From the NCBI RefSeq assembly GCF_038039215.1, contig NZ_JBBPCL010000001.1, positions 4,588,001-4,652,000 on the forward strand: a DNA stretch of 64,000 nt. Reading direction: 5' to 3'. Origin of the DNA: Pseudonocardia sp. T1-2H (GTDB lineage Bacteria; Actinomycetota; Actinomycetes; Mycobacteriales; Pseudonocardiaceae). Of the stretch, positions 34,405 through 36,374 are shown in pieces. Both the position numbers and the translations under genes were made by a program. The notes below the pieces were generated by a model. That model was given only the letters and a program-made list of their open reading frames with translations, ran no database searches and was not told the origin of the DNA. Every line of letters starts with the position of its first letter. Within the stretch, counting starts at the first letter, position 1.

Positions 34405-34929
34405 CTACTGCTCCCGCGTGACCGCCGCCAGGACCGCGGCCAACGCCCCGTCCGCGAGCGCCCGCATCTCCTCGTCCGTCCGGTCCTGGATCGGGTGCGG
34501 GACGAAGACCGACGGCACCTCGCGATAGCCCAGCGCCTTGGCCTGAGCGGCGGCGGCCACGACGAACTCCGTGGACGCGAGGAAGGCCGCGATGACGCCC
34601 CGGCCCTCGAGGGCGGCGAAGTCGTGCACACTGCACGACGTGCAGGATCCTCAATCGGCGAGGGCCTCGATCACCACGTCGCACCGGGCGGTGATCTCGC
34701 GCCGCAGGTCCGGCGGCATCGGCTTGGCGAAGGTCGGCTTGGCGTAGCGGCGCACGGCGATCCCGCGGCCGGCCAGCAACTCCTCGAGCCGGTCGAGGAA
34801 CACGTCCCCCCGCGCCTTGGCGATGTCCAGCAGCCCCACCCGCAGGCCGTCGAGCGACGCGGGCCGCTCCAGGGGGGTGCGCGAGTCCGGCGCCCGCTCG
34901 TCGGTCGGGTCCATGATCGTCAGCGCCAC
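34405..34929 (-). CDS. UGSC-family selenoprotein (selenocysteine at in-frame TGA)
   Basis: 174 residues if the TGA at 34653-34651 is read as selenocysteine, U93. The frame is uninterrupted on both sides, and the motif around it reads ALAD-U-GSCTSCSVHDF, the UGSC signature for which the family is named (in other members a cysteine replaces U). U93 and C96 would form a CxxC-like redox pair, with C99 close by. A 7-bp hairpin lies 12-30 nt after the TGA, the distance used by the E. coli fdhF SECIS. The start GTG 34929 has GAGAGAGG upstream and overlaps the stop of the thioredoxin-domain gene; ATG 34914 is an alternative. A standard caller would split it in two. Function unknown. Confidence 0.85.
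34621..34639 (-). promoter_or_regulatory. Predicted bacterial SECIS hairpin
   Basis: In the minus-strand mRNA: GUCGUGC-AGUGU-GCACGAC, a perfect 7-bp stem with a 5-nt loop. The stem starts 12 nt after the UGA and the GU-containing loop lies at +19 to +23, matching the geometry of the fdhF SECIS bound by SelB. Confidence 0.7.
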
Positions 34930-36374
34930 GGGTCCACCTCTCTCGTCACGGGCCGGCTGCCGCCGGGGCCGCCCGCCCATCCGCCGATCACGGCGGAGAA
35001 CATCCCCGCCCCTCCCCCGGCGTGCACGATCTGCAGCCCACCGGGCCGGAACTTGGGGAGCGGACGGTCGGAGTCCGACACCGGGACGCCCTCCTCGATG
35101 CCGCCCGCCCCGCGCTCGATCTCGGCCCGGTCGAGCAGCAGGAGCGCATCCAGCTCGGCCGTCAACCGCGTGCGGTCCCAGCCCGCGGCCGCGAACACCC
35201 GCGCGTGCTCGGGGCAGACGACCAGCGTCGCGTCGAACCCGATCACCAGCTTGGGATGACAGACCGCGCGCAGGCCGAGCGCGAGCGAACGGGCCAGCGA
35301 CTCCGGCGTCCGGGAGATCTGGTCCACCACGCCGCGCGGTCCCTCGGCCGCGAACACCGTGACCGCCGAGCGGCCCGGGGCGACGCCGTAGGTCTCGGCG
35401 AGGGGCTCCCACGGGGAGCCTTCCTCGTCCTCGGCGAAGCAGAAACCGATCTTGCCGGGGTGCCCGAGCGCGGCCCGGTCGACCTCGCCCGGGCGCCCGC
35501 CACCGACGTTGCGGATGACGAGCTGCAGCGCGCGGCCGATCGTCGAGTTCGCCCGGTTGCCCTGGCCGAGTGCGTTGCCCCGGGAGTTCATCCCGATCTC
35601 GGGCGCGACCGGGCCGTTGACCACGATGGCCGGGCCGGCGCCCCAGGTCGTCGCGAGCAGACCGTGGGCGTTGAACTCGTCCGTGCACGCGGCCTCGACG
35701 GCGGCAAGCACCACGGGCAGGTAGTCGGGCTTGCACCCGGCGAGGACGGCGTTGATCGCGACCTTCTCGACGGTCGCCTCGGCGAGGTTCGGTGGGATGA
35801 CCGCGACCACCTCCGAGGGCGCCCGCGACGTGCCTTCCAGCATCCGCAGGACCCGGGCGGGGGTCGGCGCGACGACCGGCAGGCCGTCGGAGTATCCGCG
35901 GTCGAACATCGCCTCGGACTCGTCCTCCAGCTCCGCGATCTCCAGCCGGCGCGACGACAGCGTGCCGCCCCGGGTGCGGACCAGCAGCTCCTCGGCGACC
36001 TCCGGATCGTGGGTGCGCGACCCGCAACCCGGCCGGTGCTCCGGCAGGCCGGCGCCGAGGTCGTCGATCCCGGTGAGCGCGGCCCACGACGCGCGCAGCC
36101 ACCCGACGGTCCGCTCCACCTCGACGCCGCCCGCGAAGCGGATCAGCGTGGGGACGGTGTCGATGTCGAGGGCGAGGCTGCCGTCCAGCGCGGTGTCGTC
36201 GCGCAGGTCGGCGACCCCAGCGGGGAACGCGGGGTCGTCCTGGGTGAACACGGCCACCTGCGGCAGCGCGGCGAGGACGGGTTCGACCAGCCGGCACGTC
36301 GGACAGTCCTGCTTGACGACGGCGACGAGCCCGTCGGACGGGAGCGCGACCGTCGGATCCGTCTGTGCCGACAT
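34920..36374 (-). CDS. Thioredoxin-domain protein with large conserved C-terminal domain, partner of the UGSC selenoprotein
   Basis: 484 residues. Residues 15-100 form a thioredoxin-like domain: redox motif DCPTC (C24, C27) and the cis-proline loop DTVPTLIRF (P75). C113 (GCGSRTH) follows. Residues from about 150 form a domain I cannot name, with GYSDGLPVVAPTPARVLRML, LAGCKPDYLPVVLAAVEA and NSRGNALGQGNRANSTIG. There is no signal peptide. The message is probably leaderless (TAGCGT 6 nt before the ATG). Its stop overlaps the selenoprotein start, so the two are made together. The pairing suggests that the CPTC site reduces or loads the UGSC site (inference). Confidence 0.82.
   Translation of the reverse strand: MSAQTDPTVALPSDGLVAVVKQDCPTCRLVEPVLAALPQVAVFTQDDPAFPAGVADLRDDTALDGSLALDIDTVPTLIRFAGGVEVERTVGWLRASWAALTGIDDLGAGLPEHRPGCGSRTHDPEVAEELLVRTRGGTLSSRRLEIAELEDESEAMFDRGYSDGLPVVAPTPARVLRMLEGTSRAPSEVVAVIPPNLAEATVEKVAINAVLAGCKPDYLPVVLAAVEAACTDEFNAHGLLATTWGAGPAIVVNGPVAPEIGMNSRGNALGQGNRANSTIGRALQLVIRNVGGGRPGEVDRAALGHPGKIGFCFAEDEEGSPWEPLAETYGVAPGRSAVTVFAAEGPRGVVDQISRTPESLARSLALGLRAVCHPKLVIGFDATLVVCPEHARVFAAAGWDRTRLTAELDALLLLDRAEIERGAGGIEEGVPVSDSDRPLPKFRPGGLQIVHAGGGAGMFSAVIGGWAGGPGGSRPVTREVDPWR

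Follow-up and report, generated by a model that had tools for sequence, protein, structure and literature searches.

A UGSC-family selenoprotein gene and its partner in Pseudonocardia sp. T1-2H: probable kinship with the selenocysteine domain of GrdB and PrdB and a possible two-subunit reductase

The UGSC gene and its locus

The window, a stretch of 64,000 nucleotides from the genome of the soil actinobacterium Pseudonocardia sp. T1-2H, carries on its reverse strand a gene of the UGSC selenoprotein family and, directly upstream, a second gene that we refer to as the partner (Table 1). The UGSC frame runs from a GTG start at 34929 to a TAG stop at 34407-34405 and crosses only one in-frame TGA, in the context ADUGSCTSCSVHDF; on recheck, the frame, the codon and its context were all as described in the initial annotation. 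The translated protein scored 153.7 bits against NF041046 (curated cut-off 125) and 160 bits against PF24696 (curated cut-off 25), and it contains the UGSC motif with selenocysteine (Sec). The window protein itself differs in nothing from the known family. Its assignment as a UGSC-family selenoprotein was borne out by these two models and by the retention of the TGA in relatives. From the sequence evidence set out below, the gene product is a new member of this family, and Sec insertion, through UGA decoding directed by SelB and a SECIS element, is close to certain.

As read by eye, the first 10 nt of the UGSC gene are also the last 10 of the partner gene, so translational coupling of the two is probable.

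Table 1. Features of the locus and of the selenocysteine machinery. Positions are those of the window except where contig C1 of the same genome is given
Feature	Position	Strand	Details
UGSC-family selenoprotein gene	34405..34929	(-)	174 aa, Sec at residue 93; frame and curated family models
In-frame TGA, predicted selenocysteine codon (residue 93)	34653-34651	(-)	TGA in 80/80 named-genome loci
Predicted SECIS hairpin	34621..34639	(-)	8-bp stem capped by the apical loop GUG (alternatively 7 bp and AGUGU); frozen codons, compensated pairs
Partner protein gene	34920..36374	(-)	484 aa, N-terminal thioredoxin domain and unnamed core domain; upstream homologue in 79/80 loci
Partner thioredoxin domain	36066..36359	(-)	residues about 6-103, motif CPTC
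Partner core domain	35175..35942	(-)	residues about 145-400; part accompanying UGSC in diverse loci
selB	C1:2317029-2318084		259.9 bits, over cut-off
selA	C1:2318139-2319407		409.3 bits, over cut-off
selD	C1:2319607-2320527		392.5 bits, over cut-off
tRNA-Sec	C1:2320653-2320744		73.4 bits, cut-off 47

Decoding of the in-frame TGA

In the named-genome set, composed of the best 80 of 542 confirmed stretches, TGA occupied the Sec position in every locus (77 by strict motif and 3 read separately). The closest named relatives among these best 80 of 542 are Pseudonocardia, with one locus (L084) at 95% identity. A phylum-wide search of 396 genomes found 27 with a PF24696 match over cut-off, or 29 at E 1e-3, and yielded 30 loci; four more distant loci (L017, L034, L037 and L038) have Cys at the Sec position. 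Of the 120 homologues listed from the protein database, 35 are long and 85 short. The motif is visible in 34 of the long ones, 30 of which have Cys. The other four (P0002, P0003, P0081 and P0006) have W, R, R or G at this site; all are single-member clusters whose residue could arise from TGA by changing a single base, and they likely reflect a read or assembly error of the TGA. A distant fused homologue, L043, has Met. The proposal that homologues would show Cys or Sec at residue 93 therefore held for nearly all sequences and failed for four of the 34 database homologues and for L043, the only cases with a sense codon for neither residue, against TGA in 80 of the 80 named loci.

The 85 short database homologues measure 95 to 122 aa and all break off at ALAD or SLAD, immediately ahead of the TGA, which is what automated gene calling would be expected to yield. 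They speak for a rival reading in which the TGA is a true stop or a sequencing error and the downstream frame is separate or dead. We consider this rival extremely improbable, given that the codon recurs in all 80 loci from different genomes, that the protein is conserved on both sides of it, that synonymous sites downstream are frozen and the stem compensated, and that the genome holds a full Sec machinery.

The initial annotation had also described a perfect 7-bp stem with an AGUGU loop 12 to 30 nt past the UGA. This was found as described (GUCGUGC-AGUGU-GCACGAC, at +12 to +30), an extra A-U pair extending the stem to 8 bp, and comparative evidence supports a bacterial SECIS. Such elements are hairpins shortly 3' of the UGA with a G among the first two loop bases, and the window hairpin has its G within those two positions. 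In 52 of 78 sequences no stem was longer than the 8-bp one with the GUG loop; in the remaining 26 a stem at +13 that overlaps it was longer. The folding energy of the window hairpin is ordinary (z of -0.73 and -0.50), which taken alone would also fit a true stop. Compared with synonymous recodings, the energy gave z of +0.30 for the window and a mean of -1.07 over the 78 sequences, 44 of which fell below -1, and Rfam gave no match at E 10 over the 601 bases searched. With these ordinary z-scores, hairpin stability was dropped as sole evidence for a SECIS, and the argument rests instead on the comparison of relatives.

In the codon-entropy set of 78 sequences (the window and 77 named-genome loci), codons +3 to +10 past the TGA had a mean codon entropy of 0.17 bits, with 0.82 bits at +3 and at most 0.34 at +4 to +10; the other 105 codons had a mean of 1.23 bits and a lowest value of 0.29. 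The Ser at +7 was coded AGT in all 78. The peptide pattern that fetched these loci spans the hairpin residues, so part of the amino acid conservation there comes from the way the loci were selected; this should not apply to codon choice, because the fetching patterns are described as degenerate. Among the distant TGA loci found by profile rather than by peptide pattern, the hairpin was kept in 21 of 22, in three of them (L030, L036 and L046) with a stem that is shorter at the base. The exception, L042, has a codon insertion, and no hairpin was seen at the usual place.

Covariation was assessed in a set of 26 sequences (A7) made up of the window, 21 of the 22 other distant TGA loci (all except L042) and four of the 80 named loci picked by eye. 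In this set 97% of the stem cells pair, three of the eight pairs change on both sides, and each of five measures was reached by 0 or 1 of 500 shuffles; there were five double-change cells, one of them from the four loci picked by eye. Slid-stem controls lay below the true stem on all measures, with covariation at slide +2 still 0.097 versus 0.129. The hairpin was absent from the SECIS position in all four Cys relatives examined, one of which (L037) can fold a different one.

Profile searches with cut-offs in the window's own genome (7.0 Mb in 3 contigs) recovered all four components that the initial annotation had proposed to look for, each over its cut-off; selA, selB, selD and tRNA-Sec stand side by side within 3.8 kb (C1:2317029-2320744), and an absence of the machinery can thus be set aside. 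A second selD-like gene (L049, C1:4293362-4294306, 344.6 bits, over cut-off) lies far from this locus. Across genomes, tRNA-Sec was present in 23 of 23 with a TGA copy of UGSC, in one of the four with only Cys or Met copies, and in nine of 20 lacking UGSC, which were taken from the top of the list and not drawn at random. At E 1e-60, all TGA-copy genomes but G036 and G326 (21 of 23) had a selB-like match, as did none of the four Cys/Met-only genomes and 12 of the 20 without UGSC; several of these 12 matches do not reach the selB cut-off and could represent other GTPases. Growth experiments lend support to Sec use in this group, since, according to excerpts of PMC7176365, Actinomycetospora chiangmaiensis, placed in the Pseudonocardiaceae by the title of one of its references, shows selenium-dependent formate removal while degrading 2-hydroxyisobutyrate, which its authors assign to Sec formate dehydrogenases.

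The partner gene and the gene neighborhood

A partner homologue lies directly upstream of UGSC in 79 of the 80 named-genome loci. In the phylum search, the partner core was within 1.5 kb of UGSC in 28 of 28 loci, a count that includes the window's own locus and leaves out L044 and L045. (L043, L044 and L045, distant or below cut-off, were left out of set A1, in which the window protein replaced the window's own locus, L024.) Over the 396 genomes, the core domain occurred in 27 of 27 genomes with UGSC, and UGSC in 27 of 28 with the core. UGSC and the core also share one reading frame in L042, where the frame runs across the TGA, and in L043. From these patterns of sequence co-occurrence we hold with great confidence that UGSC and its partner form a functional pair, a conserved two-gene unit that is sometimes fused.

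Partner sequences were compared in two sets, A4 (25 hand-chosen from 120 listed partner homologues) and A6 (18 of the 28 partner loci). A thioredoxin domain bearing CxxC was present in 25 of 25 close partner relatives aligned; over the 28 partner loci the thioredoxin part occurs in only 14, two of which (L028 and L040) have CPTS as the motif. The core contains a single nearly invariant Cys. In Pfam, NCBIfam and the PDB sequences nothing related to the core turned up, the matches being either of the thioredoxin type or isolated and weak, and hhalign of the core against UGSC and against GrdB gave nothing. No GrdE or PrdA model in Pfam or NCBIfam was matched by 18 partner members up to E 10, so that at the level of these sequence models the pyruvoyl activation of GrdB and PrdB has no visible counterpart. 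The structure prediction for the whole partner had a mean pLDDT of 75.5. Foldseek alignments of about 370 columns linked it weakly with class I fumarate hydratase (E 2.9e-3, TM 0.21); with TM about 0.2 and rmsd 15-17, this fold was not accepted for the partner.

Three variants of the arrangement were seen along the way. L043, a 573-aa UGSC-core fusion, has Met in place of Sec and Ser at +3, and no tRNA-Sec was found in its genome (G136). L184 (G183:C272) has two long frames of 664 and 782 aa, each with two tandem partner-core domains, next to a frame that reads as an FAD monooxygenase-like protein, and UGSC was not found in this genome (G183). P0142 is an 818-aa partner homologue with IclR regulator domains, which hints at regulation by IclR proteins such as the one encoded near the window pair.

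Between 30000 and 41000, the window encodes two hydratase/decarboxylases of the FAH superfamily, a tautomerase-like ORF, a Rieske oxygenase-like protein and an IclR regulator. In 29 diverse loci, with families named by reading the sequences, the recurrent neighbors were branched-chain-type ABC ATPases (9), acyl-CoA dehydrogenases (9), short-chain dehydrogenases (6), MaoC-like (5) and CitE-like (5) proteins, CoA transferases (4) and enoyl-CoA hydratases (4). Taken together, these families and the window genes point to catabolism. The idea that other neighbors are fixed parts of the system was discarded, as the commonest sense-strand family was found in only 25 of 65 long loci and 9 of 29 diverse loci. 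The Rieske, hydratase/decarboxylase and tautomerase genes of the window had matches in 5 to 8 of the 80 loci, a count to be read with two points in mind, the shortness of many of these loci and the small size of the tautomerase relative to the threshold applied.

Probable kinship with GrdB and PrdB and a possible reaction

We scanned 31 hand-chosen UGSC members (A5) against 18,950 NCBIfam models. Beyond their own family they matched TIGR01917 (glycine reductase B; 23 of 31, best E 8.5e-7), sarcosine GrdF (21), TIGR01918 (generic reductase B component; 8), betaine GrdH (8) and PrdB (3); apart from a methylthioadenosine phosphorylase model, matched by three members, reductase B components and the family itself were the only families matched by more than one. 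For the window protein itself, the glycine reductase B model gave only a weak match (E 0.0082).

For profile comparison, with Sec written as Cys throughout, we assembled the Sec domains of 15 near-complete actinobacterial GrdB matches (L054-L068) and of 10 PrdB-like proteins out of 12 tried, leaving out the mis-framed L072 and L078. Against the combined set, hhalign aligned UGSC at 95% probability (E 2.5e-8) with Sec on Sec, and with a score of 57.9, where 60 column shuffles reached no more than 19.7. The PrdB-like set alone gave 93% (E 4.4e-7) and GrdB alone only 19-53%, so the combined strength leans on the PrdB-like proteins. In the reverse scan, PF24696 weakly matched 5 of 10 GrdB/PrdB-like proteins (E 4.9e-4 to 0.11), each across its Sec. 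Judged by these sequence comparisons, UGSC is very likely a short, single-domain homologue of the Sec domain of GrdB and PrdB.

In the alignment with GrdB, GrdF and GrdH, the UGSC-TSC segment lines up with UGTGTRC, and a similar UG.(C)T.(C) turn is followed by 'E..GIP' and 'P.P..D' stretches. UGSC, at 174 aa, nevertheless lacks the N-terminal GrdB domain (PF07355) and is not a GrdB proper. The PF07355 model, which ends just before the Sec, was matched by none of the UGSC members and has no match in the window's own genome, and no GrdB structure was found among the PDB sequences. The Cys at +3 (Cys-96) is invariant in the 31 aligned UGSC members, whereas it is missing from all 15 actinobacterial GrdB-like proteins. 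PrdB and the short actinobacterial PrdB-like selenoproteins are likewise small Sec subunits with a UxxC motif, in the forms UPxC and ULTC. PrdB works with the pyruvoyl protein PrdA and with PrdC, while the partner of UGSC belongs, by sequence, to a different, unnamed family. PrdC is named together with PrdB in the available part of PMC13188914.

The AlphaFold model of UGSC (pLDDT 94.5) is predicted to have five strands alternating with five helices in a Rossmann-like order (including E31-35, H41-54, E59-63, H73-82, E85-91 and H94-109), with Sec-93 at the N terminus of the helix that follows the third strand. In a thioredoxin fold it is the first core strand that leads to the helix with the Sec/Cys motif, an arrangement that the model does not have; the model is unlike the thioredoxin fold suggested for UGSC in the passages of PMC2398784 at hand.

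UGSC might instead be a thiol or selenol oxidoreductase, an antioxidant or disulfide reductase, with the partner as its reductase. The UxxC motif fits this role, as does the thioredoxin domain that partners carry in this lineage and in 14 of the 28 loci, and literature lists that group UGSC with thioredoxin-like selenoproteins imply it. We find it unlikely, since the predicted fold places Sec after the third strand, the sequence relatives of UGSC are amino acid reductases and not thioredoxins, the core is present in all 28 loci and the thioredoxin part is not, and the neighbors look catabolic.

Sec acts as the nucleophile in GrdB and PrdB. The shared Sec domain, the invariant Cys-96, the constant second subunit and the thioredoxin domain of this lineage together suggest that UGSC, too, cleaves a bond with Sec as nucleophile. 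In such a scheme catalysis would fall to UGSC as the selenol subunit, and substrate binding and activation to the partner core, which would replace the N-terminal half of GrdB and the GrdE/PrdA subunit. The Sec-93 selenolate would attack a small substrate at a carbon or another electrophilic atom and cleave a C-N, C-S or similar bond in it; Cys-96 would then resolve the selenium adduct as an Se-S bond, to be reduced by the thioredoxin domain that the partner carries in this lineage. The unit would act in catabolic gene neighborhoods and not in amino acid fermentation. By analogy, UGSC and its partner would constitute a two-subunit, thiol-fed, selenium-dependent reductase or lyase of the GrdB/PrdB kind in catabolism, a proposal that we see as evenly balanced; for reductive-lyase chemistry as such, also argued by analogy, we put the chances slightly short of even. 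The analogous steps are described in the portions of PMC13188914 consulted, where GrdB binds glycine and releases ammonia, thioredoxin electrons enter the complex via GrdA, and D-proline reduction by PrdB is analogous to GrdB.

The pair might instead be a transferase or hydro-lyase in which UGSC is a nucleophile without a redox cycle and thioredoxin only keeps the Sec reduced. Hydratases and acyl-CoA enzymes in the neighborhoods would agree with this, and so would the weak partner matches to class I fumarate hydratase, although these have high rmsd and low TM. The single nearly invariant Cys of the core means that an Fe-S cluster of the fumarase type is not expected, and the GrdB and PrdB kin are reductive. 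We regard a transferase or hydro-lyase as improbable, and the reductase or lyase of the GrdB/PrdB kind as the reading to pursue. More broadly, and tentatively, UGSC and the core may represent an unrecognised class of selenium-dependent two-subunit reductases or lyases, a stripped-down GrdB/PrdB type with a new substrate-activating subunit, serving catabolism in aerobic actinobacteria and freshwater plankton.

UGSC is among the abundant selenoprotein families of marine and freshwater samples according to the accessible text of PMC2398784, with 255 members in the GOS set that place it among the commonest of surface waters. The same text mentions a fusion in which UGSC is joined with 'Unknown_1', possibly the partner core. 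A 2026 review, in the excerpts available, lists UGSC among proteins with functions largely uncharacterised (PMC13188914); both sources thus agree with the initial annotation that the role of the family is not established. The passages on the UGSC family in these papers give no activity or substrate for the protein and, the 'Unknown_1' fusion aside, mention no adjacent partner, and the selenium and trace-element surveys found for UGSC together with glycine or proline reductase do not, in the parts seen, state a kinship with GrdB or PrdB. That kinship and the neighboring partner gene go beyond the initial annotation, which mentioned neither. With a sequence link to GrdB/PrdB and a co-inherited partner, UGSC moves from an orphan to a testable enzyme, as the kinship and the pairing indicate two genes to express, a likely nucleophilic residue and a class of reaction to assay. 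If the scheme is true, selenium chemistry of the GrdB/PrdB type would extend to aerobic catabolism.

Two further groups of actinobacterial selenoproteins came to light in the course of these comparisons. All 15 GrdB-like genes (L054-L068) run past an in-frame TGA as U-G-T-[GS]-T-R, without the Cys of a UxxC motif. The ten short PrdB-like selenoproteins (L073-L083 except L078) have UPxC or ULTC and are possibly intermediates between GrdB and UGSC.
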